Source: Marinobacterium aestuarii
GTDB lineage: Bacteria > Pseudomonadota > Gammaproteobacteria > Pseudomonadales > Balneatricaceae
Direction: 5' to 3'
NCBI RefSeq assembly: GCF_001651805.1
Contig: NZ_CP015839.1
Coordinates: 2,604,001 to 2,668,000 of the forward strand
DNA: 64,000 bases
The notes beneath the pieces are model-generated. The model saw only the letters and a program-made list of their open reading frames with translations. It made no database searches and was not told where the DNA came from. How positions within the stretch are numbered: the first letter of the stretch is position 1; each line of letters starts with the position of its first letter. Shown here piece after piece: positions 22,574 to 41,484 of the stretch. The position numbers and the translations under genes are program-made.

Positions 22574-22995
22574 TTGAGTGAGTGAATGACATTGGTAACT
22601 ACACCGAAGATCTCGACCTCGGACTCCTCAGACAGCTGGATTGGTTTGTAGCGGGGGTTAGCCGCCTCCAATTGCAACGAAGGGCGGGTTACCAGGCGTT
22701 TGACCGTAAAGCCACCATCGATGCACGCTATGACGATGTCGCCATGTACAGCATTGAGTGATCGATCCACTACAAGCACGTCTCCGTTGAAGATACCTGC
22801 CTCGATCATAGACTCACCCTGGGCCCGCACGAAGAACGTGGCGGCTGGGCGCTTGATGCAGAGTTCGTTCAGATCCAGTGTCCGCTCGATGTAGTCTTGC
22901 GCAGGCGAGGGGAAGCCTGCCGCCACCCGCTCACTGAAAAACGGAATTCTCAGCGCCCTCGACTCACGGAATCGCCCTAAAACTACTGCTGTCAT
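22570..22995 (-). CDS. umuD: UmuD/RulA-type SOS mutagenesis protein, LexA-family autoprotease
   Basis: This 141-residue S24-family protein has the cleavage region followed by the catalytic serine in AQGESMIEAGIFNGDVLVVDRS (serine near residue 62) and the lysine in GGFTVKRLV near 99. RecA-stimulated self-cleavage would produce the active form for the UmuC polymerase. Length matches UmuD. The start is the ATG at 22995, eighteen bases from a perfect LexA box on the upstream side. It is the first gene of the umuDC pair. Confidence 0.94.
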   Translation of the reverse strand: MTAVVLGRFRESRALRIPFFSERVAAGFPSPAQDYIERTLDLNELCIKRPAATFFVRAQGESMIEAGIFNGDVLVVDRSLNAVHGDIVIACIDGGFTVKRLVTRPSLQLEAANPRYKPIQLSEESEVEIFGVVTNVIHSLK

Positions 22996-23053: not shown

Positions 23054-24601
23054 CTACTCATTAGCCCGAAATTTCAGTCGGCAGTTGGCAGCTGTAGTTC
23101 TACTTTGAGGTCCTCGATCATTCGCTCCCTGCGAGTAAGGATAAATTCCAGGACACTTTGGCCGGAGTAATAAGTCTTCATGAATCCCGGCCCTGGGGCG
23201 AATTTCAGTGTAAATTGAGGCAAACGAGTCTGTTGCTTTAGAAATATGGTAAGGCATTCCTGTCATCCTGCTTAAATCCGCTTGCTCGACCGATGATTCA
23301 CACACTAGGTGAAGATGCTGGTTCAACCACTGCTTGAACTCAGCCCTGTGCACGCCGATAACCTTCAGTCCTTTGTGAACCTGGCGATACCCGCTTAGTT
23401 CACCGTTCTTTACTGCCAGGGCCAGATCAATTTGATCCGCTCCATGTACCGTCAATCGGCTGTCATCCGGGGTAATCCAATCGCCCCTAAAGTGCCTCGG
23501 CTGGGTCGGAATGTGTTCTACCCACCGGTTCAGGGAGCGTACGTCATACCGGTTTTTAAGGGCCTGTTGGGACGGACATGTAGCCTCAATATCCATCCGC
23601 GCAAGCAGTTCATTGGCTTGGTAGCGTAATGCGAATGTCCAATGCCAACGCGACTCGGTAGGGCTATATTTTGTCAGGTGTTCTAGCCCCAACAATCGCA
23701 CAGCGGACTCTACATCGACAAGCCAGCTACGCAGCTCGGCGGGATACCGCTTTCTGAACCATTGGGGTAACAACGAGTCATCCGAAAGGCTTGGGCGAGG
23801 ACTGACCCGGTCAGGAAGTTCAACAGATACGTTCGCTGTGTCTATAGACACACCGGACAATGTAGCGAGGCGCAGTGACCTCTCAGCTTGCCATTCTGCG
23901 CGCCCAGAAGGGGTGCTAATTATCCACGCATGCCGCAATAAGTCTGGCAAAAAACGTATGTCGCTATCGAAATATTCTACACCATTATGCGCGATGTCAA
24001 ACGGGCGGGCAGCTTGTAGTAGTGCCCAGCCGAACTCATGCTCCCAAGAATTTCGATCGTCAGCGGACATCCATATTTTTTGATACGGTGGAATTTCTTG
24101 TGATTCAATCATGAGCGGCCAAGCCTGATTGCAGGCATCACAATGAGTCGATACTCTCGAGTGCCACGTCAGCGGCTCGCGGCAATGAGGACACGCTTCG
24201 ATTAAAGCCTGCTGGTGAATAGGACATACCCGCATTAACAGGTATTCAAAGGCACTGTGCATATACCCGAACGCGAGTATGCATTGCACGCAAATACGCG
24301 GCGAGCTCGAGCGCCAATCTCGTAGACTAAACTGCCTCTCAGCTAACCCGATCCTATGGTCGGGTAAGTGCGGTGCAAAATGTTCCGAAAAAATCTCTTC
24401 CGATAGCCCTGTGATAGCTGCAAGCTGGCCTGACAGCAACTTCAGATTCCCTTGGTATAAACGCCCACTTTTATTTAAGCGCCACCCTGCGGCTTTGGCT
24501 GCTTGCTTGACTGAACTATAACCATTGACCGAAGCCAGACGCCAAAGGTAGCCTAGTGGGGCTTCCTGTGCCGCGGGTGCAAAGACAACGGGCCAGGTCA
24601 T
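23054..24601 (-). CDS. tniQ: TniQ/TnsD-family target-selection protein
   Basis: This 515-residue protein starts with the TniQ domain (PLGYLWRLASVNGYSS near residue 16). A zinc-binding cluster follows (ICVQC near 103, CPIHQQAL, CPHCREPL, CDACNQAW near 150), then a long C-terminal region of about 330 residues. TniQ/TnsD proteins recognise the target and recruit TnsC. The length is that of a DNA-binding TnsD-like protein rather than the short CRISPR-associated TniQ, suggesting site-specific targeting by sequence recognition. It overlaps tnsC by four bases and is the last gene of the tns operon. No TnsE homolog or second TniQ is visible. Confidence 0.85.
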   Translation of the reverse strand: MTWPVVFAPAAQEAPLGYLWRLASVNGYSSVKQAAKAAGWRLNKSGRLYQGNLKLLSGQLAAITGLSEEIFSEHFAPHLPDHRIGLAERQFSLRDWRSSSPRICVQCILAFGYMHSAFEYLLMRVCPIHQQALIEACPHCREPLTWHSRVSTHCDACNQAWPLMIESQEIPPYQKIWMSADDRNSWEHEFGWALLQAARPFDIAHNGVEYFDSDIRFLPDLLRHAWIISTPSGRAEWQAERSLRLATLSGVSIDTANVSVELPDRVSPRPSLSDDSLLPQWFRKRYPAELRSWLVDVESAVRLLGLEHLTKYSPTESRWHWTFALRYQANELLARMDIEATCPSQQALKNRYDVRSLNRWVEHIPTQPRHFRGDWITPDDSRLTVHGADQIDLALAVKNGELSGYRQVHKGLKVIGVHRAEFKQWLNQHLHLVCESSVEQADLSRMTGMPYHISKATDSFASIYTEIRPRAGIHEDLLLRPKCPGIYPYSQGANDRGPQSRTTAANCRLKFRANE

Positions 24602-25536
24602 GACCGTTTCCCGAGTTCGCGACGCACCTGGTCAAGAGAGGCACTGAAAGGGTTGCAGGCGGGTTCGCGAAGGTTAGGTCGACGCTGCTCAAAACCACAT
24701 GCAAGATCCGCAAGTGTTAAACCTTTCACTTCATCCGCCACGCCGATAGCGGCCTCGATAACGGACATTATATTTGCTATACGCCCTTTGGACGCCAGCA
24801 TGAAGCGATTAGCCATTTCAGGCGACGATAACGTGATCGTCGGGATGGATATGGCTTTTTCGCATTCCACTAGAACTCTGCGGCAATACCGCATGTCCTC
24901 GCCGGTAGCCAGGCTAAGGTTGCTAATTACAGTGGAGGCTGCAAAACGACGCTGAAGCTCCGGATGGCCGTTTAACACCGACAATGCCTGCATTGTTCCT
25001 GCAAGGATAAAAGGAATGCCCGTTTCTTCCATAAGATTTTTGATGAGGTTACCCAATGCTGGTGCATTTTTTTTGGCATAACGGTCGGCTAGGTGATGGA
25101 ATTCATCGATAATAACCAGCTCAACATTACGACTATTCAAAAGGGTTTCAGCCTTTGTTTCGTACTCGGATTCTGTGATTCGACCCTTTGAATAATGCCC
25201 CAGCCGCTCACACATTTTTCGTAAGAAATCTTTTTTTGTAGACTCTGCTGTAACACGCAACAGCAGGATTGGCAGGCGGTGCTCCCCTGGAGCATTGCCG
25301 ATTTCGTTCAGGCGGCAGTATTCGCTGATGTAAAACAGAATGGCTGAAGTCTTGCCAACACCGGTTTCACCGACCAACATCATGCCCCGTGGCTGAAAAC
25401 CACGTGTTGCATGGATGTTGTTGATCGCTTTTACTGCCTTAATAAAATTTGTGTGTAAAATACGGATTTCAAGAAACTCGATCGCAGCAGACTTACGACG
25501 AGGATTAGGATTGATCAAAAAGTCAGACATGGCCAA
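24598..25536 (-). CDS. tnsC: TnsC/TniB-type AAA+ transposition ATPase
   Basis: This 312-residue AAA+ protein has Walker A GETGVGKT near residue 56, Walker B ELVIIDEFHHL near 140 and a sensor region FILAGTMQAL near 175. The size and motif spacing match TniB/TnsC proteins that link TniQ-bound target DNA to the transposase. It overlaps tnsB by 14 bases at its start and tniQ by four at its end, forming a coupled operon tnsA-tnsB-tnsC-tniQ. An alternative start three codons in (MSDFLINP) is possible. Confidence 0.93.
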   Translation of the reverse strand: MAMSDFLINPNPRRKSAAIEFLEIRILHTNFIKAVKAINNIHATRGFQPRGMMLVGETGVGKTSAILFYISEYCRLNEIGNAPGEHRLPILLLRVTAESTKKDFLRKMCERLGHYSKGRITESEYETKAETLLNSRNVELVIIDEFHHLADRYAKKNAPALGNLIKNLMEETGIPFILAGTMQALSVLNGHPELQRRFAASTVISNLSLATGEDMRYCRRVLVECEKAISIPTITLSSPEMANRFMLASKGRIANIMSVIEAAIGVADEVKGLTLADLACGFEQRRPNLREPACNPFSASLDQVRRELGKRS

Positions 25537-27475
25537 ATCCGTCTATTAAATCATCGTCAAAATCTAAACCATCTGAAACGTCCGGCGTTAAGCTTGCAGG
25601 GGTATGTTCAACGGCGTCTACGAATGCTTGAATGTGGGCGGCTTGACTGTCGATGCTGTCAAGATTGAGCTTTGTATTGTTCCCAGATGGCTTGCGCTTT
25701 CGTTTCCGACCCTGCGATGCGGTATAGACTTCCGAGTCCTGAATAAATCGATGAGTACCGAACGATTGGTTATCTTGATCAACCCATTGAGCAACTTCAC
25801 GCGCTCTATACTCGCCTAGGCTTACGCCATTTAACTCGTCGTAATCCGACTTTGCAGGAACATTCAGTCTAGCCCCGAGCTTAGGCAACACCACTGTAAT
25901 GCTACCTAGATCTTCCGTGTCTCTTTGTACAAGGACCTCCTGGGGATAGCCCAATCCAGAATCCAGCACCAGCTTATCTAGCTCGTTACTTTGATACCAA
26001 ATATTATTAATTCGTACACCCTCACGTTGTAACTTACGCGTGGTAACTTCGCCACGAATAAGTCGAAACTGATCGGCAATCGCGGGTACTACCGGCGGGG
26101 CCATTTTGGCACCTTCTAACCAGGCTGAGTAGGGCGTCCGGGATGCTTTTGAACCAGGTTTATTGAGGCCGCTATGCGGACGCTGATGATAGTCATCAAC
26201 AATGTATTGGGTCAGCAATGTAGTGAACTCCTCCAATGTCATTACAGCACTTTGCTGCATAGTGAGATCCTGCTCTTTTTGGTCTGTGCGTTTTCCAACA
26301 TATCCGAGAAGACTAAATAGAAATTGAGTACGACAAGTACCAAAGAATCGCTCGATAAACGGCTTTTTCCAAGGCTGGCGCACCTCGGTTACAATATGTG
26401 CTACTTTCAAGTGTTTCATGAAAGCTTTTACTTGGTGGGCATTAAAGGCAGGCCCAGCGTCGGATACGAGCATGCTCGGAAGGCCATACATTGGCATGGT
26501 ATTTAAGCAGCTCATCCCGTCCAAGTTATTCGGAGCAAGGAATTGTTGCAGCAGTTTTAGTACACCTGAGGCATTCTCGCCTTTACCAACCTGAACATAA
26601 AAACCTAAAATTGCACGTGAGTAGCAGTCGATTGCTGCATAGACGATTGGCGCGCCCAAATAGTTTCCATCATTGTCCAGCAAACCGATATTGAACTGTG
26701 CCGCATCCACCTCTGTTCGTTCAAGTATGTGATCAAACTTGAAGTTTTTTATTGCTTTTCGACGTACGCGATTACGTTCGGATTGGCTCATTTTTTTGGC
26801 CAGCTGGTCTGGTGTCAGCAGCATAGTGTTCGCCCAAGTATAAAATTGGGCTTTGGACACACACTTTACAGATGATAGGGGGTCATCTGGGTCTAGTTGG
26901 CACTTCTTGTAACGTTTTAGCATTTCCCCATAGCAAGCATTAAGTGTCAAAGCTCCTTTAGGCTTTAGATAGAAATCATCCATGATCTCGTAAAACAGCG
27001 TCTCGACTGGCGCGGACGCACGAAGCAGTGATTTTCTATTTTTAGGTGTAATGGCCCCGAGAATACCAATGGATGACTCTTTATATCGCTTATACCGAAC
27101 ATAAAGGGTCGAAGGAGAAGGAGGGTTGAGGTCCCTTATTTTTGCAGAAACTTTATCGATAACACGACGACGAGTAGAGATGGAACCTCGTTTTTCCTCC
27201 ATTTCTAGTTCCGAGATATAGTTCCCCCAATAGTCGGCTTGAATCATTATCGATTCAGAGACTGAGGGTTGTACAAAAGCATCACGGTTACCGTCCGTAA
27301 ATACTAAATAGCCATTCTCGAATGCCTCATCAAAAATTTTCTGTGTAAATACCTTACCGGCTGAACTGTCATCCATCGTTAAAAAAAACTGATCCCCAGT
27401 ATAGAATAATTTTGCGGGCTCCCCGAGATATAGACATGGCTTACCACTTGACTGCTCGAATAAAAACTTATTCAT
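25523..27475 (-). CDS. tnsB: TnsB-type DDE transposase
   Basis: This 650-residue Mu/TniA-type transposase has an N-terminal helix-turn-helix region, an RNase H-fold catalytic core and a C-terminal beta-barrel part. The catalytic triad can be read as the first aspartate in TEVDAAQFNIG (near residue 257), the second in LVSDAGPAF (near 340) and the glutamate in KPFIERFFGT (near 375). It cuts and joins the 3' ends of the element and binds the repeated TTTCCAGTTCAAG-type sites at the termini. It overlaps tnsA by four bases. The coding sequence is more AT-rich than the surrounding cargo, consistent with horizontal origin. Confidence 0.93.
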   Translation of the reverse strand: MNKFLFEQSSGKPCLYLGEPAKLFYTGDQFFLTMDDSSAGKVFTQKIFDEAFENGYLVFTDGNRDAFVQPSVSESIMIQADYWGNYISELEMEEKRGSISTRRRVIDKVSAKIRDLNPPSPSTLYVRYKRYKESSIGILGAITPKNRKSLLRASAPVETLFYEIMDDFYLKPKGALTLNACYGEMLKRYKKCQLDPDDPLSSVKCVSKAQFYTWANTMLLTPDQLAKKMSQSERNRVRRKAIKNFKFDHILERTEVDAAQFNIGLLDNDGNYLGAPIVYAAIDCYSRAILGFYVQVGKGENASGVLKLLQQFLAPNNLDGMSCLNTMPMYGLPSMLVSDAGPAFNAHQVKAFMKHLKVAHIVTEVRQPWKKPFIERFFGTCRTQFLFSLLGYVGKRTDQKEQDLTMQQSAVMTLEEFTTLLTQYIVDDYHQRPHSGLNKPGSKASRTPYSAWLEGAKMAPPVVPAIADQFRLIRGEVTTRKLQREGVRINNIWYQSNELDKLVLDSGLGYPQEVLVQRDTEDLGSITVVLPKLGARLNVPAKSDYDELNGVSLGEYRAREVAQWVDQDNQSFGTHRFIQDSEVYTASQGRKRKRKPSGNNTKLNLDSIDSQAAHIQAFVDAVEHTPASLTPDVSDGLDFDDDLIDGFGHV

Positions 27476-28116
27476 AGCTCAATTACCGTAGTAAAATCAA
27501 TAGGCTTATTAATATCGAACTTAACCTCCCCACGTGCCATTTTATAATACAGATCAGCTAGATTATTATCATATTTAAATTCATTCAAATAACTTGCTAT
27601 GTCTCCTTTGAATCTAAAATTATTATTTAGATTTAATGGAGCGTTATCCAAATAACGGTATAGAAAAATTGCATTTTTTGTAGCTTGTGACTTATATGAA
27701 ATGAATTGAACTTTCAAATTAAACCCGGCTTTATTGAAAAGCTCTGCTAGTATATTGAACTTATTTTTTTCTTTCTCACTCAACTCTTTTAAATCACTCT
27801 TTACTTCAATGAAATACGCAACCACATTAATTTCTTTAACAAAAAAATCTGGCGTATAACGACGTGACTTGCCATTGATTTGATATTCTATACTCAGTGG
27901 CTGCGAGTTGAAATAAATAATATTATTATTCATTTCCAGTTCAATTGATTTAGCAAGCTCAGTGTAGCTCTCTAGGTACATGGAGCATCCCGCTTTGCGA
28001 GACGTATAGGTAATGGTCGGCTTTACAGGTGACGCTTTATACAGATTTCTCATCAGGTTGCAAGCTCCTATGCCTTTGTTTTTCGGCGATAACAAATCGC
28101 CACATATAGAATACAA
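27472..28116 (-). CDS. tnsA: TnsA-type endonuclease
   Basis: This 214-residue protein carries the restriction-like nuclease core in RYTPDFFVKEINVVAYFIEVK: the metal-binding aspartate follows the YTP sequence near residue 91 and the E-x-K follows near 106. TnsA cleaves the 5' strands so that, with TnsB, the element moves by cut-and-paste. The C-terminal region (FRFKGDIASYLNEF) is short compared with Tn7 TnsA (about 270 residues) but retains a plausible TnsC-binding segment. It is the first gene of the leftward operon. The coding region is very AT-rich. The start may instead be the ATG 21 codons in (MRNLYK). Confidence 0.88.
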   Translation of the reverse strand: MYSICGDLLSPKNKGIGACNLMRNLYKASPVKPTITYTSRKAGCSMYLESYTELAKSIELEMNNNIIYFNSQPLSIEYQINGKSRRYTPDFFVKEINVVAYFIEVKSDLKELSEKEKNKFNILAELFNKAGFNLKVQFISYKSQATKNAIFLYRYLDNAPLNLNNNFRFKGDIASYLNEFKYDNNLADLYYKMARGEVKFDINKPIDFTTVIEL

Positions 28117-29024: not shown

Positions 29025-30812
29025 TTAGTTGGCATCAGGGCAGTCAAAATGAGGCATAAGCTCCGCTCCTTCATTGGTTATCTGGCGAGTACTACGGGTA
29101 TCCAGAACGATGCCTGGTACACATCGAAGCCGGTAGTTCAGCGTGGATAGGTAACTTTCAGTAAGATGCACTTCCCACAGCCGTGGATGGCCACAGACAG
29201 CGCAGTTTCCGTCCTGGTATGGGCGGTGATCGCCGCAATGCTCACAACGCATTAGGCTGTCATGCCCAGATTGCTTCAGGCTTGTAATGACCTGAATAAG
29301 CGACTGAATTCGCTCTTCTCTGATTTTACGGGCAATCGCGAGCCGCGACTGTTCCTGAGCGCGATGAGCTTCGAGCGCTGCTTGCTCCTTCCGGTCGGCT
29401 GCCTCCTGTGCCAAACGGTGCTCTTCGTCCTTTCTGGCGCGCGCAGCATGTAATGCTGCAATGTTGTTTTCACGGATGACAAACAGCCCTGTACCGGGCT
29501 GTGCTTGCTCAAGAAGCCCTTCTTTCACCAAAGACTCCATGAACTTGTGCACGATGCTGTAGGGGCTCGGAATCATGGCGTTTTCCTTGTCTTCCAAGAA
29601 CCAGATGCCCTTGCGCCCATACCACTGTCCACGGGCTTTGCCTTGTTGTTTGTATCGATACTTCAAGTTAACGAGCGCCGCTGCCCAGTCGAGTAGTCCA
29701 AACTGGCGAACGATGCGCTGCTTGATCAAGTTTGTGTGCAGCGTCGTGTTCTTAGCTTTAGAAACGATACAGTTTTCATAGATGTAGGCTTGCCAGATTG
29801 TTCGGTGAGCATTGAGTATCCAGTCCCCCTCAATAGGCACATCCAAACAGGGAGGCCACGGAGTTACGTTAAGTCGCTCCAGAATTGCGGGTGTGGACGA
29901 TTCTGCGCCCTCCAGAAGCGACTGATTACGGACGGCAGCACCATCGTCTTGCACCATCCGTCTCAGTGCCTGAAGAGGGGCATGATACTGCTGGCGCAAC
30001 TGTTCCCGCCGCTCAGCGATCTGGTGTTTGCGTGCTAGCTTTTGGGCTTCCTCGTGTTTTTGCTCCATCCGCTTACGACTTTCTTCGTCAAGTCGGGCCT
30101 GATGCTCGGCCCGGTAACGTTGAACGCGCGCGTCCAAGTATGCTCGTGCCGTTTCGATTTCGTCGTTATGGAGCTGGCAGGCGATCCAGTCCCGGGGGGC
30201 GGCTTCCAGCACCTCATGGCGAAATCGCTCCATATCCTGCACGTCCTCAAGGGTAAGATGCGCAAGATGGATTTCGAACATGTTCTTGTTGGCAAAACGA
30301 GACCGCTTGTCATCCGATACCGCATGAGTCACATGGACCTCGATGTAAATTTCGGTGCCATCCTTCAGGCATGCAACGATATCTGGCCGCAGGCCTTCGG
30401 CCGTTTGCTCGAGTTTCACGGAATCAAATGCCAGAAGGGACGATTCCCTGTTGACATCTTCTGAGAGCAAGTGCCCTGGATACGCTTCTTTTTCAATTCG
30501 CGTAGAAAAACTTGGACAGAACGCCTGCTTGGTGTCTTCGATAACCTGCTTGGCCATCAGATGAACGGCGCTCTCGTAACCACCAGAACACTCAGCACCT
30601 CGCCAATGTGAAAAATATTCACGCTTACGCTCGCCCTTATTGGCCACCAATGCCGTACCGCAGCCAGGACAAACACAGTCGCACGATTTGCCGCGGATGA
30701 CTTCAGAAGGGCCGTAAAGGCGATTCCCGCGGCGGCCAAAGGGAACCCGCAGCCCGTTGGAGCGCTGATCAATTGAGCTGATCATCTCAGATGATGCTTC
30801 GTTGTTGTCCAT
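29025..30812 (-). CDS. CoiA-like zinc-finger nuclease candidate
   Basis: The protein is about 595 residues. Near the N-terminus, CVCPGCGTALVANKGERKREYFSHWRGAEC is a zinc-finger plus HxW-type motif like those of CoiA competence proteins. It is followed by a nuclease-like segment, LRPDIVACLKDGTEIYIEVHVTHAV, with an aspartate and an E-V-H in PD-(D/E)xK spacing. The middle (about 215-290) is a long charged coiled coil; the C-terminus holds a second zinc ribbon, CEHCGDHRPY...CAVCGHPRLW. I chose the ATG at 30812, which has GAGG nine bases upstream, over the one at 30827. It is divergent from the membrane-protein gene. It may be a stand-alone DNA-targeting defence protein; function is inferred. Confidence 0.6.
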   Translation of the reverse strand: MDNNEASSEMISSIDQRSNGLRVPFGRRGNRLYGPSEVIRGKSCDCVCPGCGTALVANKGERKREYFSHWRGAECSGGYESAVHLMAKQVIEDTKQAFCPSFSTRIEKEAYPGHLLSEDVNRESSLLAFDSVKLEQTAEGLRPDIVACLKDGTEIYIEVHVTHAVSDDKRSRFANKNMFEIHLAHLTLEDVQDMERFRHEVLEAAPRDWIACQLHNDEIETARAYLDARVQRYRAEHQARLDEESRKRMEQKHEEAQKLARKHQIAERREQLRQQYHAPLQALRRMVQDDGAAVRNQSLLEGAESSTPAILERLNVTPWPPCLDVPIEGDWILNAHRTIWQAYIYENCIVSKAKNTTLHTNLIKQRIVRQFGLLDWAAALVNLKYRYKQQGKARGQWYGRKGIWFLEDKENAMIPSPYSIVHKFMESLVKEGLLEQAQPGTGLFVIRENNIAALHAARARKDEEHRLAQEAADRKEQAALEAHRAQEQSRLAIARKIREERIQSLIQVITSLKQSGHDSLMRCEHCGDHRPYQDGNCAVCGHPRLWEVHLTESYLSTLNYRLRCVPGIVLDTRSTRQITNEGAELMPHFDCPDAN

Positions 30813-30850
30813 GATCTTGTGCCTCATATCCTGTATTCAATTGATGAATG

Positions 30851-30872
30851 ACACCTCTTGTTGATGAGGTGT
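30851..30872. promoter_or_regulatory. Inverted repeat in the divergent promoter region
   Basis: ACACCTC and GAGGTGT are perfect seven-base inverted repeats separated by eight bases. They lie between the CoiA-like gene and the rightward membrane-protein gene, so they may form an operator or a small hairpin. No binding protein is identified. Confidence 0.35.
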
Positions 30873-30953
30873 ACACGGCGGATAATCAGCGAAATCAATT
30901 GGATGTTCGTGCCGTTCCGGAACTTCCGGAACGCAGAAAGGGACTTTGCAGCA

Positions 30954-32054
30954 ATGCAGGACGAAAACGAAGACGTAAAAAGCCGCCAGGTGCGCTACCT
31001 TTGCCGCTGTCTTGAAGCAATCGAAAAGGAATTTTGTAAGGGCAACGAGCCGCTCGCTGCCTTTTACCGTGAATGCCTGTCGTATCTGGGTTCACACGAC
31101 AAGCTACAGTCCGGCGACCTTGCTGCGTGCGATAAGCACACGCACGAAGATAAAAAGCTGACGACTAAGGCGTATAGAGCCCGTCTGGAAAAACTGAGCC
31201 AAGAGCTCCAGAGTAAAGGTTCACGCCTTAGACCACTTTTGCGTGACTTTAATCTCACCCGACAGCCCATTCTTAGCTGTGTCGTCGGTCAAGGGAACGG
31301 TAATCAGAGCTACTACCAGCTGACAGTTGAGAACGAGGGGGAGGGCACCCAATCCGGTGCGCAGCAAGATAACACACTGCCCTTGGCCACATACCCCGAC
31401 ACCGCTGCTGAGGTCCCTACGCAACATAACGAAAAGAGTAAACCCGAAGCGCCCACTATGGATCCGGGCCTGATCTACTACCGTACGAATGAGATCAGTC
31501 GAGCGCCTTGGTACCTGCGGGTGGCGGATCCGCTGTTTAGGACCCAACTAAATCGCATGCGCTTCGCGGCTAGCCTTATGGCGATGTACTTTCTGGTTTT
31601 GCCTGGGCTGATCGTTTACCTGTTTTTGCTGAAACAGCATACAAACATGACACTGTTTCTGTTCGCTGGTTTTTTAGCACTCTACCTTTTTACCTATGCA
31701 CCCTCGACAAACCTGTTGCGGTTGTTTACACGCAAAATTGTACTTTTGGATGCGATACGGCTACCTGTCAGCAGCATCTGCATTTCCGAAATTACCAAGA
31801 TACCGGCGGAAGACGACCGGCCGGCCAATGTCGAGCGATCGCTCAGCGTCGTTACGGTGGCCGCCGACTGCCCTGTATGCTTTCAGCTATACGGTGTGCG
31901 TGACTCCGTACTGCTCGAGCAGAAGGGACTACTAAATAGCTGGATTTATGGCGCCTGCACTAACAATCCGATGATGCACAGGTTTACCTTTGACAAGGAT
32001 CTGATGACAGGTCTACCCATCAGCCCAAAAGCACCGGGCCATCTCCATCTGTAA
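30954..32054 (+). CDS. Uncharacterised two-transmembrane protein with a long cytosolic N-terminal region
   Basis: I do not recognise this 366-residue protein. Residues about 1-150 are hydrophilic and partly coiled coil (LTTKAYRARLEKLSQELQSK). A disordered linker rich in Q, P and E follows. Two adjacent hydrophobic segments (SLMAMYFLVLPGLIVYLFLL and TLFLFAGFLALYLFTYA) lie around 205-255, then about 110 residues of soluble C-terminus. This soluble-TM-TM-soluble layout occurs in membrane effectors of defence systems but is not diagnostic. AAAGGGA lies ten bases before the ATG at 30954. In-frame ATGs at 30903 and 30858 are alternatives. It sits upstream of the nucleotidase gene in the same direction. 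Confidence 0.55.
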   Translation: MQDENEDVKSRQVRYLCRCLEAIEKEFCKGNEPLAAFYRECLSYLGSHDKLQSGDLAACDKHTHEDKKLTTKAYRARLEKLSQELQSKGSRLRPLLRDFNLTRQPILSCVVGQGNGNQSYYQLTVENEGEGTQSGAQQDNTLPLATYPDTAAEVPTQHNEKSKPEAPTMDPGLIYYRTNEISRAPWYLRVADPLFRTQLNRMRFAASLMAMYFLVLPGLIVYLFLLKQHTNMTLFLFAGFLALYLFTYAPSTNLLRLFTRKIVLLDAIRLPVSSICISEITKIPAEDDRPANVERSLSVVTVAADCPVCFQLYGVRDSVLLEQKGLLNSWIYGACTNNPMMHRFTFDKDLMTGLPISPKAPGHLHL

Positions 32055-32150
32055 ATACACAGCATTGAGGTCAGCCTTCATATTGATTGGTTTGTGGTGG
32101 GGGTTACTTCTCCAAATTTAATTCTCGCATATAACATCAAGGGGGGGGGT

Positions 32151-33170
32151 ATGTCGCTGGATCTTAGTGAAACCTTTGTCGTGGGAGTCTCATCCACCGC
32201 GCTGTTCGACCTGAGCGAGTCGGACCAGCTATTCAGACAGGCGCAAGTCAATGAACCCAACACTGCCATAGCGGTCTATCGGGAGCATATGCGCGAACGC
32301 GAAAGCGAGCCGCTCGCGCCAGGTACAGGACACCCGCTGATCAAGGCATTGCTGGGGCTAAATCGATACGGCGATCCGGATCGATCACCGCTGGTAGAAG
32401 TTGTGGTCATGTCACGCAATAGCCCCGATACAGGACTGCGGATACTGCATACGATTCGTCATCAGCAATTGAATATTAGCCGCTCCGCCTTCACCGCCGG
32501 TGAGTCAGTGACGGATTATCTGGAAGCCTTCGACGTAGACCTTTTCCTGACGACCAATGTTAGTGATGCGCAGAAGGTGATTGACTCGCGAGTTTGCGCA
32601 GCTGCTGTACTCAAACCGCCTCCCACCGGCGATAGCCAAGCGATACCGGAAGGGCAGGTGCGCATCGCTTTTGATGGCGATGCGGTACTGTTCTCCGACG
32701 CCAGTGAATTGGTCTACAAGACCGAGGGGCTCCAGGCATTTCTCGATCAGGAGGATGCCATGCAGGACGAACCGTTGGCCGATGGCCCTTATGCGCACTT
32801 GTTACGCAAACTTTCGCTGTTGCAAGAACGGCTGCCACAAACGGTGGATACGTCTCCAGTACGTATCGCTCTGGTAACCGCACGCAATAGCCCGGCCGAA
32901 ATGCGGGTAATCAAAACTCTTCGGAGCTGGGGGGTACATGTGCACGAAGCTTTCTTTTTAGGTGGTGTCGGCAAGGCCAAGGTACTTAAAGCCTTTCGCC
33001 CACACGTATTTTTCGACGATCAGGATGTGCACCTGGATGAGGCCGCACTGCTGGTACCTTCTGGAAAAGTACCCTACCACAGCAGTTCACTACTGTCGGA
33101 TCTAAAAATGATAAACACGGATGCGACTGGCGATAAAGATGAGACCGAGAGTACGTCTATAGGAGGTTGA
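32151..33170 (+). CDS. Cytosolic 5'-nucleotidase (NT5C1/PF06189-like)
   Basis: This 339-residue protein resembles cytosolic 5'-nucleotidase I. VVGVSSTALFDL is at the start, VEVVVMSRNSPDTG near residue 83, RIAFDGDAVLFSD near 180 with a HAD-like catalytic aspartate pair, LVTARNSPAEMRVIKTLRSWG near 255 and HVFFDDQDVH near 300. Such enzymes dephosphorylate nucleoside monophosphates. The start follows a run of nine G residues after AA (32139-32149), a strong if unusual ribosome site; the extra upstream frame to 32094 is unlikely coding. It lies between a membrane protein and a nucleotide-sensor-like activator in a defence island, so a nucleotide-depleting or signal-clearing role is possible. Confidence 0.8.
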   Translation: MSLDLSETFVVGVSSTALFDLSESDQLFRQAQVNEPNTAIAVYREHMRERESEPLAPGTGHPLIKALLGLNRYGDPDRSPLVEVVVMSRNSPDTGLRILHTIRHQQLNISRSAFTAGESVTDYLEAFDVDLFLTTNVSDAQKVIDSRVCAAAVLKPPPTGDSQAIPEGQVRIAFDGDAVLFSDASELVYKTEGLQAFLDQEDAMQDEPLADGPYAHLLRKLSLLQERLPQTVDTSPVRIALVTARNSPAEMRVIKTLRSWGVHVHEAFFLGGVGKAKVLKAFRPHVFFDDQDVHLDEAALLVPSGKVPYHSSSLLSDLKMINTDATGDKDETESTSIGG

Positions 33171-33398
33171 AGTAGCAAGTGTCCCCATTTTGGTCGGCCA
33201 TCTTGACCACTTTTTACCCATCTCGCCCATACTCTGATGTTTTTAGCATCGCGGTATTTATCACCTGCGAGTAGTGAATGTGAGGCATGCCCGATATTGT
33301 TACAAATGCGGCTAAGTATAATCGGGGCATGACAACATGCTTTATCCCTTCGCGAATGGTAAATTTTGTTACAGATTCATAAATGGATTTATGGTGAT
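33171..33398. other. Intergenic stretch before the sigma54 activator gene
   Basis: No gene is visible. The segment from 33176 (AAGTGTCCCCATTTTGGTCG) carries a GGTC/GACC inverted repeat and looks like a possible decayed insertion-sequence end, though I cannot assign the family. The rest is AT-rich upstream sequence of the activator gene. Confidence 0.3.
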
Positions 33399-34901
33399 AT
33401 GAAGAAGCAGATACTGCTGACCTGGCTTGGCAAGCACGATCTTGATGCGGAAGCCAAGAATCAGCTCGGCCCTGTCGCATCGATTCTTCTGGGTACTGGG
33501 TGGCCTTTTGACGAAGCACGTATCCTGGTCAACGACTGGTTCGATGAGGTTCCCAGATATGAAGCCTGGCTCAAGCGGGTGCTCAAGAAAGAGGGACGCT
33601 CGGCTTGCGTATTCATCCGCTGTGCTGAGCTTCGAAGTCCGATTGATTATCCAGGTATCTATGCGGTGGCAAGGGAGGAGCTGGGTCGGCTCGCCTCTCC
33701 AGAGCGGAAAATAACCTTGAATCTCACCTCTGGAACTCCAGCAATGATCGCAACCTGGCTCTTGCTGGGCAAAGGGGTCTTTGGCGCCAAACTGGTTCAA
33801 ACGTCCCTACAGCAGGGGCTGTCGGTCGTTGACTTGCCCTTCGATATTTCGCTGGAGTACCTACAGCAGCAGGATGGAATCCTCGGTTCAATCGCATCTG
33901 CTACACCCGGCTTAAATGCGCATTTCGAGCATATCCAGACGGCTTCGCCGGCCATGCAGGAGTGTGTCGAGCTTGCCAAGCGCCTGGCTGTGCGAGATGT
34001 TCCGGTGATCATTCAGGGTGAAACCGGAACAGGCAAGGAAGTGATGGCCGAAGCGCTCCATCAGGCGTCGCTTCGTAATGCTAAGCCGTTCATTGCAGTC
34101 AACTGCGGTGCCATTCCCGAAAGCCTGCTCGATTCACAGCTATTCGGCCATGTGAAGGGGGCTTTTACCGGTGCGACAGGAGACCGCAAGGGATACTTTG
34201 AGGAAGCTGATGGCGGGGTTTTGTTTCTGGATGAGATTGGTGAGCTGCCGCTGGAAGCTCAGGCCAAGCTTCTTCGTGCTTTGCAACAGAAAGAGATTAC
34301 GCGGGTAGGTGACAGCAAACCCCGCAAGGTGGATATCCGGGTCATCGCGGCCACTCACCGTGACCTGTTGTCGATGGTTGAAGACGGTTCGTTCCGTGAA
34401 GATCTCTTTTATCGCCTGGCTGTGGGTGTGCTGCATATTCCAGCTCTGCGCGAACGTATACAGGATATGGAACTACTGGTTGAGGCGTTGCTAGCGAATC
34501 TAAACCAGGAAGCGCAAACTCAACCAGGGTATGTAAGTAAAGAAATTTCCAAAAATGGAATTAAATTTATTAAAGCACAGCGCTGGCCGGGCAACATTCG
34601 GGAGCTTTGGAATACGCTGGTACGTGCGTCTATCTGGAGCGATGATCAGATGCTGGATGCGATCCATCTGGAAAAGGCACTGATCAGGCGTCCCGACGGC
34701 GATGACACAGGTGCGCTGCGGGTCGATGTGTCCGGTGGTATCGATATTAATAAAATCATAGAAAAAACAAAAAGATACTGCATTGAAGAGGCCTTTAGAG
34801 TGACTGCCGGTCAGAAGGGAAAAGCGGCTAAACTACTGGGGCTCAGTAATCATCAGACGCTGACAAACTGGATGAAGCAACTGGGGATGGAAGAACAATA
34901 A
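33399..34901 (+). CDS. Sigma54-dependent transcriptional activator with CARF/RtcR-like sensor domain
   Basis: This 500-residue regulator has three parts. The N-terminal 160 residues form a Rossmann-like sensor resembling the CARF/RtcR type ([14 protein letters not shown] at the start; [20 protein letters not shown] near 108). The AAA+ sigma54-contact domain (about 185-420) contains Walker A GETGTGKE, the GAFTGA sigma54 loop and [15 protein letters not shown]-terminal Fis-type helix-turn-helix ends [21 protein letters not shown]. Such proteins open sigma54 promoters when the sensor binds a signal; CARF domains bind nucleotides, while RtcR responds to RNA ends. The gene stands directly before the restriction-Zorya cluster, and candidate -24/-12 promoters occur there. 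The TTG at 33366 is a less likely start. Confidence 0.85.
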
Positions 34902-34920
34902 AGCGCGCCTGATACAAATC

Positions 34921-34936
34921 TGGCACGATATCTGTA
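34921..34936 (+). promoter_or_regulatory. Candidate sigma54 promoter upstream of hsdR
   Basis: TGGCACGATATCTGTA matches the -24 element perfectly and has GG-N10-GT spacing to a -12 element in which the usual GC is GT. It lies 30 bases before the hsdR start and 20 bases after the sigma54 activator gene. Confidence 0.5.
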
Positions 34937-34965
34937 ACACAGGACGTTATCACAGGCAGAGCGAC

Positions 34966-37900
34966 ATGAAGTCCATGAATTTTGAACACCTAAGACCTCA
35001 CTGGCCGGAGCTGGCAAATCTTGGCGGATTCGCCGAGACCTATGCCCATCTGGATCCGCAAAGCGCGCTAGTCAAGCTGCGCTGCTTTGTGGAGATGCTG
35101 GTCGGAGCCATCTATCGCGATCTCAAATTGCCTGTCGAGCCCAATGCCACTTTCATGGATCGGCTGAATAACGGCAGTTTTACCTCTGTCGTTCCCCGTG
35201 TGATTCTCGATAAGCTGCATGCTGTACGTATTAACGGCAACAAGGCCGCGCATGAAGGCAATGTTTCTGCTGATTCGGCCGTATGGTTGGTACAGGAGGC
35301 ATACCATCTTGGCTGCTGGCTATACGTGACGCAGGCCGATGGCAGCCCGGAATCCTGTCCGGACTTTCAGGTGCCACAAATGCCTGGTGTGTCCAGCAGC
35401 AAAGGGGAGTTCAAGAAAAAGGCCAAAGCGTTGCAGGAGCAGCTTGCAGCGCAGTCTGCACAGCTTAAACAGGCGCTTGCAGAGCTGGAGACCGCCAAAC
35501 AGGCTGAGCGTGAGGCCCAGCAGCAAGCAGCCCGCCTGAAAAACGAATTTGACAAGGTGAAAGCCCAAGCCTTTATCGCGGCAAGCAGCAAGGCTACCAG
35601 TACTTTGGTGCTTAACGAGGCCGAGACACGCCGTCGCCTGATTGACAGCGAGTTGCGCGACGCCGGTTGGGATCTGAGCCTCGACGGTGCCAGCACCGAG
35701 CAAGTCACGCTTGAGCACGAGGTGGATGGTCAGCCGACTCAAACGGGCATTGGTTACTGCGATTATGTACTGTGGGATGATAACGGCAAGCCACTGGCCG
35801 TAGTGGAAGCAAAGCGCGCCCGCGAGAATGCCGAGAAAGGCCGTCAGCAAGGCAAGCTCTACGCCGATGCCCTTGAAAAGAAGCACGGTCAGCGCCCGGT
35901 AATCTTCTATACCAATGGTTACGACGTCTGGATCTGGGACGATGTGCTCGACACCGTGCCCCGCAAGCTCTATGGCTATTACAGCAAAGACAGCCTCCAG
36001 TACCTGATCAGCCAGCGCAAACAGCGAAAGAACCTCAATAGCACGCCTATCGACACCACCATCGCCGGCCGTTTGTACCAGATGGAGTCGATCACCCGTG
36101 TCAGCGAACGCTTCAGCGAAGGCCATCGCAAGGCGCTGGTGGTGCAGGCCACCGGCACCGGCAAGACCCGTGTATCCATTGCGCTCACCAAGCGGTTGCT
36201 GGATGCCGGCTGGGCGAAGCGGGTGCTGTTCCTGTGCGACCGAAAGGAGCTGCGCAAGCAGGCCAAAAACGCTTACAGCGAATTCGTCAAAGAGCCACTC
36301 TATGTGGTGGGACGAAGCAAGAAGCAGGATCAGCATAATGCCCGCATCTACATTGCCACCTATCCAGGCATGCTGCGCATTTACGAGCAGTTCGATGTCG
36401 GCTTCTTCGATCTGATCATCGCAGACGAATCTCATCGCTCGGTCTATAACGTCTACGGTGACCTGTTTAAATACTTCGATGCCCGCCAGATGGGGCTCAC
36501 GGCCACGCCGGTGGAAATGGTAAGCCGCTCCACTTGTCGGCTGTTTGGCTGTGATTACAAGCTTCCTACCGCCAGTTATCCGCTGGAGCAGGCGGTGGCC
36601 GATGGCAACCTGGTGCCGTTTCGTGTCGTCACCCACACTACCCAATTCCTGCGTGAAGGGATCAAGGGTCATGCACTAAGTGACGAGCAGGTCGCTGAAC
36701 TGGAAGACCAAGGTCTAGACCCTAATGACCTTGATTTTAACGCCCCCGATATCGACAAGGCGGTGTTCAACAAGGACACCAACCGCGCCATCCTGCGCAA
36801 TCTGATGGAGCGCGGCCTGCGTGATGCAGACGGTCAGCTACCCGGCAAGACCATTGTCTTCGCTCGCAACATTCAGCACGCCGAACTGCTGGCCTCGCTT
36901 TTTGGCGAGATGTATCCCCAGCACGGTGGCAATTTCTGCCGTGTGATCCACTCCAAGTATGAGCGTGCTGAAGAGCTGATCGACGATTTCAAGGGCGCCG
37001 GAGAAAAGCCCGCCGACGAGATTACCATCGCCATTTCGGTGGATATGCTCGACACCGGCATCGATGTGCCCTCAGTGGTCAATTTGGTATTCGCCCGGCC
37101 GATCAAATCCAAGGTCAAGTTCTGGCAGATGGTGGGGCGGGGCACCCGTCTGTGTGAAAACCTGTACGGTCCTGGCCAGGACAAGACCCATTTTTTGATC
37201 TTCGATCACTGGGGCAACTTCGATTACTTCGAAATGGACCCGCCTGACGACGAAGCTCGCCCGAGTAAATCCCTGAGTGAAAAGCTGTTCGATAGCCGCC
37301 TTGATCTGGCCGAAACGGCGCTCAGGAAAGCGGAGATGGAGCTGTTCCAGCAGACCATTGCGCTGATTCAGGAAGACATCAACGCCCTGGACGACCGCTG
37401 CATCGCTGTGCGCGATAAATGGCAGCTCAAGGCACAGCTCGGTGATGTCAAAACGTTGCAGCAGTTCGCCCCCGATACCCGACAGCTCTTGCGTGCCGAG
37501 ATGTCGCCGCTGATGCAGTGGCGCGATATCAAGGGACAGTCCGAGGCCCTGCGCTGGGACCAGCAGCTCACCGAACTACAGCTGATCCGCCTGACCAATC
37601 CATCTCAGCTGGATGTGGTTAGACAGCCGGTGCTCGACAAGGTGAGTCAGCTTTCCATGCACCTCAATCCGGTGCGTGCCCAGGCAGAAACGATCAGGAC
37701 CATCCAGCAGGATGCCTTCTGGCAGGCCGTCACGTTCGAGCAGCTGGAGAAGAAGCGTCTCGCCCTGCGCGGTGTTATCCACCTGCGTGATAAAAAATTA
37801 GTAGATCCGCCAACAGCGCCGCTGCCGGTTATCGATATCAAGGAAGACGAGGGTCTGTACCAAACCGGTGATCGGCCAACCCGAATTATTAATGTCGATT

Positions 37901-38418
37901 ACCAGATTTTCCGCCAGCAGGTGGAAGCCACACTCACACCTCTGTTCGAAACCGACCCGGTGCTGGTCAAGATCCGCCAGGGCAAGCCGGTTAGCGAGGC
38001 CGAGGTGGCACAGCTGAATGCCCTGGTGCACATCCAGAATCCCGATCTGGATCTGGGTACCCTGAAGGAGTTTTTCCCAGAGTCCAGTGCCACCCTGGAT
38101 CAGATTCTGCGGACCATCGTCGGGCTGGATGCGATTGCTATAGAAGCGGCCTTTACCGATTTTGTGCAGGCACACCACATCAGTCTGTCGAGCCGCCAGC
38201 AGCGCTTTATCGGCCTGCTCAAGAACCATCTGTGCAAGTACGGCTCCATCAACGTGGCCGATCTGTACGAGCAGCCGTTCATTGCCGAGCATCACGAAGG
38301 CCTCGATGGTATCTTCCCCGAGCAGCGCCAGGCCAACGCACTGGTGGCGCTGGTCAAGCGCTTCGGAGTCCATCTGGGAGCCCGTAAGACCCGCACAGAA
38401 CACGGCATTAGCAACTGA
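34966..38418 (+). CDS. hsdR: Type I restriction enzyme, HsdR (R) subunit
   Basis: The N-terminal 110 residues resemble a DUF4145/HEPN-like helical domain (ALVKLRCFVEMLVGAIYRDL), followed by coiled coil (about 150-205). The nuclease core is GYCDYVLWDDNGKPLAVVEAKRA (about 263-285, with D and ExK). The SF2 translocase motor has Walker A QATGTGKT near 395 and Walker B IIADESHRS near 485. GLTATPV and MVGRGTRLCENLYGPG follow, and the C-terminal 300 residues match the EcoEI-type R subunit tail. At 1150 residues it is full length. It cleaves unmodified DNA after translocation with HsdM and HsdS. It starts the hsd-zor operon. Confidence 0.95.
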   Translation: MKSMNFEHLRPHWPELANLGGFAETYAHLDPQSALVKLRCFVEMLVGAIYRDLKLPVEPNATFMDRLNNGSFTSVVPRVILDKLHAVRINGNKAAHEGNVSADSAVWLVQEAYHLGCWLYVTQADGSPESCPDFQVPQMPGVSSSKGEFKKKAKALQEQLAAQSAQLKQALAELETAKQAEREAQQQAARLKNEFDKVKAQAFIAASSKATSTLVLNEAETRRRLIDSELRDAGWDLSLDGASTEQVTLEHEVDGQPTQTGIGYCDYVLWDDNGKPLAVVEAKRARENAEKGRQQGKLYADALEKKHGQRPVIFYTNGYDVWIWDDVLDTVPRKLYGYYSKDSLQYLISQRKQRKNLNSTPIDTTIAGRLYQMESITRVSERFSEGHRKALVVQATGTGKTRVSIALTKRLLDAGWAKRVLFLCDRKELRKQAKNAYSEFVKEPLYVVGRSKKQDQHNARIYIATYPGMLRIYEQFDVGFFDLIIADESHRSVYNVYGDLFKYFDARQMGLTATPVEMVSRSTCRLFGCDYKLPTASYPLEQAVADGNLVPFRVVTHTTQFLREGIKGHALSDEQVAELEDQGLDPNDLDFNAPDIDKAVFNKDTNRAILRNLMERGLRDADGQLPGKTIVFARNIQHAELLASLFGEMYPQHGGNFCRVIHSKYERAEELIDDFKGAGEKPADEITIAISVDMLDTGIDVPSVVNLVFARPIKSKVKFWQMVGRGTRLCENLYGPGQDKTHFLIFDHWGNFDYFEMDPPDDEARPSKSLSEKLFDSRLDLAETALRKAEMELFQQTIALIQEDINALDDRCIAVRDKWQLKAQLGDVKTLQQFAPDTRQLLRAEMSPLMQWRDIKGQSEALRWDQQLTELQLIRLTNPSQLDVVRQPVLDKVSQLSMHLNPVRAQAETIRTIQQDAFWQAVTFEQLEKKRLALRGVIHLRDKKLVDPPTAPLPVIDIKEDEGLYQTGDRPTRIINVDYQIFRQQVEATLTPLFETDPVLVKIRQGKPVSEAEVAQLNALVHIQNPDLDLGTLKEFFPESSATLDQILRTIVGLDAIAIEAAFTDFVQAHHISLSSRQQRFIGLLKNHLCKYGSINVADLYEQPFIAEHHEGLDGIFPEQRQANALVALVKRFGVHLGARKTRTEHGISN

Positions 38419-38758: not shown

Positions 38759-40300
38759 ATGATTACCGGCGCACTGAAAAGCAAGATCGACAAGCTGTGG
38801 GAAGAGTTCTGGACCGGCGGTATCGCCAACCCACTGACGGTGATCGAGCAGATTACCTTTCTGATGTACGCACGCCTGCTGGACATGAACGAGCGGCGTG
38901 ACGAAAAGCGCGCTGAGCGTACCGGCAAGTCATTCAGCAAGCGTTTTACCCAGTATGAGCAGGACATCCGCTGGGAGAGCTTTCGCCATCTGCCCGCCGA
39001 CCAGATGTACAAGGTCGTCAAGGATGAGGTGTTCCCGCACTTCAAGGATCTGGCCGGGGAGGGCTCGCTGTTCGCCGAATTCATGAAAGACGCCCAGCTG
39101 ATGATCCAGAAGCCCAATCTGCTGGTCAAGGCGGTGAACATGGTCAGCGACCTGCCGCTCGACAGCGCTGATGTCAAAGGCGACCTGTACGAGTATCTGC
39201 TGTCCAAGCTGACGACCGCCGGCATCAACGGTCAGTTCCGCACCCCGCGCCATATCATCCGCGCAATCGTGGAAATGCTTGAGCCCGAAGCCCACTACCG
39301 CATCGCCGATCCCGCCTGCGGTACCGCGGGTTTTCTGGCCGCCAGCTACGAGTACCTGCTGGAAAAATACAGCTCTCCCGAGGGGGTGATTACCGAAACG
39401 GTAATCAACGACAAGGGCGAGCAGGTCGAACAGAAAATATACACCGGCGATCTGCTGCATGAACACCGCCGCCATGTGGACACCGACATGTTCCACGGTT
39501 TCGATTTCGACGCCACCATGCTGCGCATAGCCGCCATGAACCTGGTGATGCACGGCGTTGCCGAGCCCGATGTGCATTACCAGGATACCCTCAGTCAGCG
39601 CTTTTCCGAGCGCTTCCCTCAGGCGGCGAAGGAGGGTTTCGATCTTATTCTCGCCAACCCGCCGTTCAAGGGCAGCCTGGATGAGGAAGATGTAGACCCG
39701 GCGCTGCTGCGGGTAGTGAAAACCAAGAAGACCGAGCTGCTGTTCGTGGCCCTGATCCTGCGCATGCTCAAGATCGGTGGCCGCAGCGCTACTATCGTGC
39801 CCGACGGCGTGCTGTTCGGTTCCTCCAAGGCGCACCAGCAACTGCGCAAACACCTGATTGAAGACAATCAGCTTGAAGCGGTGATCAGCCTGCCCAGCGG
39901 CGCATTCAAGCCCTACGCCGGCGTCTCCACCGCCATCCTGATCTTCACCAAAGGTGGCGAAACCGACCATGTCTGGTTCTACGATGTGCAGGCCGATGGC
40001 TTTTCGCTGGATGACAAACGCCAGAAAATAGACGCCAACGATCTGCCGGATCTGATCAGCCAGTTCAAGTCCAGGGGCATGACACCGGCCGACAGCGCGC
40101 AGAACGACCGCAGCGCCCAGCGCTTCTGGGTCAGCAAGGCCGAGATTGAAGCCAGCAAGTACGACCTGTCGCTGAACCGCTACCGCGAGCAGGTGCATGT
40201 GACTGAGGAGTACGATGCGCCCAAGGTTATCCTGGCACGGCTGAAGGCTCTGGAGGCCGAGATTCAGCAGGACCTGGAAGAGCTGGAGGGGATGCTGTAA
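38759..40300 (+). CDS. hsdM: Type I DNA methyltransferase, HsdM (M) subunit
   Basis: This 513-residue N6-adenine methyltransferase has an N-terminal HsdM helical domain ([20 protein letters not shown]). The SAM-binding motif I is [11 protein letters not shown] near residue 183, and the catalytic motif IV is LANPPFKG near 300. Methylation of the recognition site protects the host and is needed for restriction. It overlaps hsdS by one base (TAATG). Length and motifs fit an intact M subunit. Confidence 0.96.
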
Positions 40301-41484
40301 TGGTTGCTTTAAGCGAATTGGTTGATATTCGTGGTGGAGGTACGCCTAGCAAAGCTGTACCTGAATATTGGAATGGAAATATACCTTGGGCATCAGTTAA
40401 AGACTTTAAATCTTCAGAGTTGAGAGTCACAGCGGATTATATTTCTGAGCTAGGGGTTAAAAACTCAGCAACAAGTTTGATTCCGGCCAATAGTATTATT
40501 GTCCCTACGCGCATGGCTCTGGGCAAAGTTGCTATGACAGCCGTTGATATGGCAATTAACCAAGATTTAAAGGCTTTGCTAATTAAAGATGAAGTGGTAC
40601 TTGATAAGCGCTATCTTTTACGGTTTCTAGAATCTAAATCTCGGTTTATAGAAAAGCAAGGTAAAGGGGCTACGGTAAAGGGTATAACCTTGGATGTTCT
40701 GCGCAGTTTGAATGTCCCTCTCCCGCCCCTGGCCGAGCAACAGCGTATCGCCGCCATTCTGGACAAGGCTGACGCCCTGCGCCGCAAGCGCCAGCAAGCC
40801 ATCGACCTCGCCGACCAGCTCCTCCGCAGCGTATTTCTGGAGATGTTCGGCGATCCGGCCTCCAATCCGAAGGGGTGGTCAATAATGTCGGCTGGTGCGT
40901 GCCTTCGTGAAGGATTTATACTCGAGGTTCAAGACGGAAATCATGGCAATGATCATCCTAAAGTTGCGGACTTTTCTCAGTTAGGTATACCTTTTGTTAC
41001 CGCAAATGTCGTTCGCGATGGAAAGATTCTATTCGATAAATGTTATTACCTCAGCGATGCGTGGCGAAACAAGCTCCGGGTTGGCTTTGCACTGCCAGGA
41101 GACGTATTGTTAACCCACAAAGGCACGTTGGGTTTAACCGCAGTGCTGGATGAAACACACTCTGTGTACATATTTAGCCCCCAAACTACTTATTACCGGA
41201 TCAACGAGTCTCATATACTTCCAGATTATCTAAAGGGTTATTTCGATACGGAGTATTTCCAGCGTTTGTTAGCGAAGGAAGGAAAGCAGTCTACACGGGC
41301 GTACATCGGAATAACGAGACAGAAAGAGTTACCGATCATTGTTCCTCCAATGGAGGAGCAGAGGAGGTATGTAGATTTGGTGGAGATATACAAGAAAAAA
41401 CTCGATAACTACCGGAGTCATGAGATGGCTTGCGGGGCGCTGTTTGCTTCTTTGTCTCAGCAAGCCTTCCGAGGTGATTTGTGA
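40300..41484 (+). CDS. hsdS: Type I specificity subunit HsdS
   Basis: This 394-residue protein has two target recognition domains (about 1-145 and 200-370) separated by the conserved central helix LPPLAEQQRIAAILDKADAL. A second, weaker conserved region, VPPMEEQRRYVDLVEIYKK, lies near the end. It determines the two half-sites of the recognition sequence. Both variable domains are AT-rich compared with the central conserved part, a common sign of domain exchange. It starts within the hsdM stop codon. A single complete S gene is present, with no inverted second copy nearby. Confidence 0.95.
   Translation: MVALSELVDIRGGGTPSKAVPEYWNGNIPWASVKDFKSSELRVTADYISELGVKNSATSLIPANSIIVPTRMALGKVAMTAVDMAINQDLKALLIKDEVVLDKRYLLRFLESKSRFIEKQGKGATVKGITLDVLRSLNVPLPPLAEQQRIAAILDKADALRRKRQQAIDLADQLLRSVFLEMFGDPASNPKGWSIMSAGACLREGFILEVQDGNHGNDHPKVADFSQLGIPFVTANVVRDGKILFDKCYYLSDAWRNKLRVGFALPGDVLLTHKGTLGLTAVLDETHSVYIFSPQTTYYRINESHILPDYLKGYFDTEYFQRLLAKEGKQSTRAYIGITRQKELPIIVPPMEEQRRYVDLVEIYKKKLDNYRSHEMACGALFASLSQQAFRGDL

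Follow-up and report, generated by a model that had tools for sequence, protein, structure and literature searches.

The window analysed here, a stretch of 64,000 nucleotides from the genome of Marinobacterium aestuarii, holds a complete open reading frame (start ATG at 32151, stop ending at 33170) for a 5'-nucleotidase. It lies between a membrane protein gene and the gene of a CARF-containing sigma54 activator, which in turn stands directly upstream of hsdR, as it does in other loci. The features are as follows.

30954..32054 (longer ORF from 30858), + strand: membrane protein, with hydrophobic stretches recognized by eye; judged to lie outside the unit
32151..33170, + strand: cN-I-like (PF06189) 5'-nucleotidase, 339 aa, with two HAD-like halves and the DxD...K...DD set in the C-terminal half
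33191..33209, + strand: terminator-like hairpin just 3' of the nucleotidase gene; weak, as three were found against a shuffle mean of 3.6
33402..34901, + strand: RtcR-like CARF-AAA-HTH sigma54 activator; the longest ORF starts at TTG 33366
34921..34936, + strand: sigma54 (-24/-12)-like site TGGCACGATATCTGTA in the rtcR-hsdR gap; the -12 GC lacks its C
34966..38418, + strand: HsdR-like restriction subunit of a type I RM system, 52-56% identical to E. coli genes that are annotated as DEAD/DEAH helicase and adjoin hsdM and hsdS
38759..40300, + strand: HsdM, type I RM methylase subunit, about 63% identical to an annotated E. coli type I subunit M
40300..41484, + strand: HsdS specificity subunit (Pfam Methylase_S, E 4.9e-32)

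The original prediction had placed an NT5C1-like enzyme here, next to a membrane protein and a CARF-like activator and embedded in a defence island. The enzyme is indeed a complete cN-I-like member of PF06189 (Pfam '5-nucleotidase', 377.3 bits against a curated cut-off of 28.2, E 4.9e-113); it also matches the PADLOC model PDC-S08 over residues 1-313 (415 bits, E 3.1e-125), and an NCBIfam search returned no match. The activator next door matches Pfam Sigma54_activat at 241 bits and the PADLOC model RtcR_PspF2 CARF_AAA_HTH at 617 bits, and the defence island is confirmed by what lies downstream of the regulator: the type I RM genes hsdRMS, then ZorABC and Druantia III.

The membrane protein is adjacent as described, but its position is probably incidental. 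It matched nothing in Pfam, NCBIfam or PADLOC, and no relatives were found by sequence patterns in genome contigs or by tblastn in plasmids. The one relative found when 115 other genomes of the family were searched is weak (E 4e-4; 9e-7 pairwise) and, like the window gene with its CoiA-like neighbour at 29025-30827, lies divergent beside a CoiA-like gene; we therefore assign the membrane protein to another pair and set it aside as a partner of the nucleotidase. On this one example, it more likely belongs with the CoiA-like gene. The divergent pair, whose membrane protein carries a C-terminal CxxC...C...H, occurs at 29025-32054 of the window and in another genus (L203, 9087-11093), and is possibly a two-gene module.

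Several other features of the window were recorded in passing. ZorA, ZorB and ZorC at 41902-56350 resemble type I Zorya and are followed by the Druantia III genes DruH3 and DruE3, not by ZorD. Consecutive genes for a MoxR-type ATPase, a vWA protein and a RiboL-PSP-HEPN protein occupy 56712-60356, and relatives of the first two also lie near rtcR-hsdRMS in L163 and L168. Tn7-like genes (TnsA-like, Mu/rve transposase, TniB and TniQ) adjoin the island at 23054-28116, and a UmuDC-like pair, a Peptidase_S24 protein and a Y-family polymerase with DUF4113, lies at 21290-22995.

The nucleotidase protein

The catalytic aspartates, whose loss would have refuted the original prediction, are retained throughout. 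In an alignment of 59 rows (the window protein and a chosen 58 of 77 usable rows), D175, D177, T243, R245, K275, D289 and D290 are invariant in all 59; we take these residues to have the HAD catalytic roles. The protein set behind this alignment is without L104 (a duplicate), L127, L131, L144 and L153 (match cut or not beginning at residue 1), and without L123 and L135 (short or broken frames); L155 was dropped before tree building as a duplicate. From family and residues, the gene product is predicted to be an active 5'-nucleotidase on nucleoside 5'-monophosphates.

Structure prediction gave a confident model (mean pLDDT 88). No solved structure related by sequence was found, and a Foldseek search of the model against the PDB gave no match at E 0.001 or better. 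VIA-align returned HAD phosphatases (Z about 9-11) mixed with a few other folds, a result that we do not read as function; the top fold matches, at Z about 11, are the acid phosphatase AphA and the phosphatase domain of T4 polynucleotide kinase (Pnkp), which the C-terminal half resembles. The two halves of the protein are themselves similar in profile comparison (E 8e-9 to 4e-10, probability 95-97%; reversed control 0.2%), and in an alignment read by eye the N-terminal half lacks aspartates at the positions matching the C-terminal DxD. Together these observations give cN-I-like nucleotidases the look of a tandem HAD domain duplication with an inactive N-terminal half and one active half.

The likeness to the T4 phosphatase domain bears on a role raised by the original prediction, in which the nucleotidase would reset the system by degrading the CARF activator's ligand. 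It fits that role, but a shared HAD fold is no proof of function, and cyclic or 3' phosphates are not the substrates that one would expect of a 5'-nucleotidase.

Purifying selection on the gene is strong, as it is on hsdM: dN/dS is 0.02-0.05 in eight of eleven pairs (dS is saturated in the other three), close to the 0.013-0.029 found for hsdM in four pairs. Broken copies exist (L073, G111). No second copy was found in the window's own genome by protein or family search, and members of the clade are 57-77% identical to the window protein, against 37-56% for ordinary PF06189 genes of the window's family.

The regulator and its putative promoter

The regulator was also traced among the window's relatives. 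The model PDLC01995 matches all 96 related genomes because of its AAA domain, and regulators were counted only at 577 bits or more with coverage of the CARF part; by this measure a full-length regulator is present in 12 of the 96, the window's own genome included. An hsdR- or hsdM-like gene lies directly behind it in 10 of these 12 loci, and 11 of the 12 have no nucleotidase of the window's clade alongside. A search of viral contigs for RtcR by sequence patterns found nothing, and ahead of L100 and L101 the rtcR copies contain an internal stop.

For promoter sites we examined 26 regulator loci and counted the 22 in which an hsdR of the window's family comes next. The rtcR-hsdR gaps of these 22, the window among them, are 52-78 nt long and comprise 18 distinct sequences. 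Every one contains a sigma54-like site, TGG[CT]A[CT] with a G at the -12 position, and every one has GG at -24; GC at -12 is found in 15 of the 22, from which the window's site is missing. In random stretches the relaxed motif occurs at 6.6% and the motif with GC at 0.7%. The four loci outside the count follow their neighbours: L032, with a more distant hsdM behind rtcR, has the site; L034, with a more distant HsdR-like neighbour, has a site with GC right behind rtcR; and L035 and L043, with no hsd gene near, have no sigma54-like site. On the evidence of the 22 of 22 gaps, the regulator goes with the type I RM operon and is placed to control it.

Neither inspection by eye nor a simple repeat script found a conserved element 5' of rtcR, and a sigma70 scan of 30800-35000 found none, where 3.8 would be expected by chance. 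The window's nucleotidase gene is upstream of rtcR and so outside the predicted sigma54 operon; it would need another promoter, and this copy is not covered by the operon model.

Recurrence beside restriction genes

A scan of one genome per species gave 135 relatives of the nucleotidase, and the best 80 of these (61-77% identity) were kept. An hsd link was scored where HsdR or HsdM, with 40% or more identity to the window's protein, lay within 10 kb. Such a link is present in 17 of the best 80 loci of 135, with the hsd genes upstream each time, and a homologous regulator stands ahead of hsdR in 14 of the 17 (seven inside the loci and seven beyond the locus edge, on contigs matched by their identical length; L075, L080 and L087 are hsd-linked without it). 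In these 14 of the best 80, the order is rtcR, hsdR, hsdM, hsdS, nucleotidase, at times with other genes between. The recurrence beside CARF-sigma54 regulators that the original prediction proposed to look for is therefore found. It exceeds the background: a regulator lies near the nucleotidase in 14 of 80 loci, against 9 of 368 class genomes with the window's own removed (Fisher p 2.5e-6, a value that ignores relatedness). That background comes from a sample of 369 genomes of the class, 10 of which carry the CARF domain of the window's regulator anywhere in the genome; four carry the nucleotidase, and the two occur together only in the window's genome, so that the sample is uninformative on co-location.

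The link to hsd genes by itself is less sharply set off. Ordinary PF06189 loci of the window's family lie near such hsd genes in 1 of 20 cases, and 17 of the best 80 of 135 against this control falls short of significance (p 0.11). Among the 31 gammaproteobacterial loci (L074-L101, L106-L108) the comparison is 17 of 31 against 1 of 20 (p 0.0002), with the group picked post hoc; its main branch has support 90 and is unstarred. On a quick tree of 93 rows, which includes near-copies and truncated loci, the RM label requires 10 changes against a mean of 20.8 for shuffled labels, and none of 500 shuffles came as low. In all 16 listed RM loci the preceding ORF is on the same strand, and the gap is 61 nt or less in 11 of them.

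Conversely, 43 of 82 clade rows are without a link to the window's hsd family; in many of the 80 loci the sequence falls short of the 10 kb flank that was sought, so absent hsd links are partly unseen. The neighbour scan covered 74 of the 77 upstream and 74 of the 75 downstream neighbours. Ordinary genes appear among them, including seven response regulators in the 74 downstream neighbours, aconitase and mfd, and the nearest relative, from Neptunomonas (L074, identical to L201), lies beside purT and an APH-like kinase gene and not beside RM genes. These unlinked rows and ordinary neighbours, together with the broken gene copies, fit a reading in which the nucleotidase is metabolic cargo: a nucleotide-salvage phosphatase on integrative elements that comes to lie near RM genes through a shared island and has no defence role. 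The same reading draws on a Pseudomonas aeruginosa panel in which PDC-S08 is without association with resistance, being evenly split between phage-resistant and phage-susceptible strains in the part of PMC10855318 that concerns it.

Escherichia coli offers a second view of the same gene. E. coli W carries a 72% identical copy, WFL_RS23685, beside hsdRMS, and with this copy as query the nucleotidase is found in 68 of 5426 E. coli genomes (61 with the window gene as query). The hsdM of the window's family is far commoner (414 of 5426). Among the matches listed, 26 of 60 nucleotidase records, many of them near-clonal, are also in the 60 hsdM records, at a nucleotidase-hsdM distance of 3.5 or 5.9 kb. 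All 11 nucleotidase loci that we opened have type I RM genes or their remnants upstream, of a different type I family in two of them, so that recurrent linkage to defence genes, whose absence would likewise have refuted the original prediction, holds here as well as in the relatives' loci. Neither these 11 loci nor 8 stretches upstream of them gave a match to the window's regulator or contain an annotated CARF regulator; in three loci a WYL-domain regulator is ahead of hsdR instead.

The genes between hsdS and the nucleotidase vary among the E. coli loci (Dsr1, SIR2, AAA+HNH, carbon-nitrogen hydrolase and others), and in two opened hsd islands without the nucleotidase, other genes occupy the place behind hsdS. 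An integrase or its remnant lies downstream in most loci, often past a gene for a phosphorothioate-DNA-binding endonuclease. The position of the nucleotidase within islands at tRNA genes, close to their integrase end, is again what cargo would show. Against cargo stand three observations: the linkage to RM is repeated, with at least two type I families and with type III-like genes, with and without the regulator; the gene is packed tightly on the same strand behind hsdS or the slot genes; and it is held by purifying selection while the adjacent slot genes change. We regard the cargo reading as possible, if doubtful.

RM genes of other kinds are found outside E. coli. Type III-like restriction genes are directly ahead of the nucleotidase in a proteobacterium (L111) and in Alicyclobacillus (L133), and other type I hsdR genes adjoin it in L118 and L148. 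In L076 it lies behind EH-signature/SNF2 genes, and the same clusters occur in L078. As a separate observation, the Vibrio tubiashii plasmid pFP31 (L065, 6612-20954) has the nucleotidase, near Hhe and AbiH, in a run of many closely spaced genes on one strand that resembles a cassette array.

The association with several RM types, and the phosphorothioate-DNA-binding restriction endonuclease gene on the nucleotidase's other side in several E. coli islands (broken in some), would suit a sanitation role, in which the enzyme dephosphorylates modified deoxynucleoside monophosphates made by the phage and keeps phage DNA cuttable by the companion restriction enzymes. The modified-base substrate is conjecture on our part, however, and we think this role unlikely.

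The same loci weigh on the clearing of the activator's signal. A predicted operon shared with the CARF regulator in 14 of the best 80 loci of 135 would agree with it; signal clearing needs a CARF partner, however, and so is not general, given the regulator-free E. coli loci and the 11 of 12 regulator loci without the nucleotidase. This part of the original prediction is disfavoured, and as a general role we consider it very unlikely. That E. coli pairs the nucleotidase with RM without the regulator, and that most regulator loci of the window's relatives lack the nucleotidase, is also why comparison of the loci shows the gene as what appears to be an optional accessory of the RM neighbourhood, moving between bacteria. 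Overall, the original observation is confirmed and its interpretation is partly supported.

Proposed role and known systems

Our preferred explanation is that the nucleotidase is an accessory of RM loci, co-induced with the restriction enzyme, that denies nucleotides to the phage. As the comparison shows, the clade accompanies RM loci, most often behind the rtcR-hsdR-hsdM-hsdS operon with further defence genes between. The CARF-sigma54 activator is predicted to induce hsdR and the downstream genes from a sigma54 promoter in the rtcR-hsdR gap once its ligand appears. By analogy with RtcR, that ligand may be RNA whose end is a cyclic phosphate. The nucleotidase would then convert 5'-mononucleotides, freed as RNA turns over and as phage or host DNA is degraded, to nucleosides, and the phage would re-use nucleotides more slowly during cutting by the restriction enzyme. 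Of the roles that we can infer, nucleotide depletion is the best supported and is plausible; for the explanation as a whole we put the probability at about 0.4. A more elaborate version is two-tier inducible restriction, in which a CARF-sigma54 sensor of RNA damage switches type I RM and nucleotidase on together, and the nucleotidase removes 5'-mononucleotides, perhaps the phage's modified ones in particular, so that phage DNA could be neither rebuilt nor disguised from restriction. We consider this version unlikely.

If the preferred explanation is true, restriction enzymes would be assisted by metabolic partners, and type I restriction, which is usually thought to be always on, would be switched by CARF-sigma54 proteins. 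The vague candidate PDC-S08 also becomes a testable genetic unit, with a regulator, a promoter, a partner and a strain (E. coli W).

The window protein has in common with the cytosolic 5'-nucleotidase I family (PF06189) a full-length match and the HAD residue set; the animal members of this family are NT5C1A/B. A 5'-nucleotidase induced by phage T5 reportedly combines 5'-nucleotidase activity with excretion of free bases. That enzyme is a phage weapon against host DNA salvage, whereas here such an activity is possibly used by the host. Nucleotide-depleting defences include dCTP deaminase and dGTPase, which, like the Clover dNTPase, act on triphosphates. The window enzyme, in contrast, is predicted to use 5'-monophosphates and is tied to RM; it likewise would lower the nucleotides that a phage can use, as in the account of Clover in PMC12265719.

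The regulator has closer precedents. Makarova et al. 2014 (PMC4012209), in passages on the subject, note that RtcR-like CARF-NtrC regulators often accompany R-M systems; passages of the CoCoNuT paper (PMC11090510) describe superoperons that combine RtcR, type I RM and Druantia III. The window shares with these systems the regulator architecture and the adjacency of type I RM and Druantia III, as set out in those passages, in which no sigma54 sites are shown; the word 'nucleotidase' is absent from the main text of both papers, supplements aside. Full-text literature searches, supplements aside, found no paper whose retrieved passages join a nucleotidase to RtcR- or CARF-regulated RM. Two papers proved unrelated on checking, in the portions concerned (PMC4676750, PMC3224125), and the RptR paper (PMC12255303) is without the words 'nucleotidase', 'RtcR' and 'CARF'.

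PDC-S08 is the same family as the window protein, a candidate model of a single gene for which no tested function turned up. What was already known is thus that the family is a listed candidate and that the regulator-RM link is in print. Relative to PDC-S08, the present comparison adds the link to the rtcR-hsdRMS operon and the sigma54-like site, that is, a recurrent rtcR-hsdRMS-nucleotidase unit with a putative promoter site, together with a regulator-free form in E. coli.
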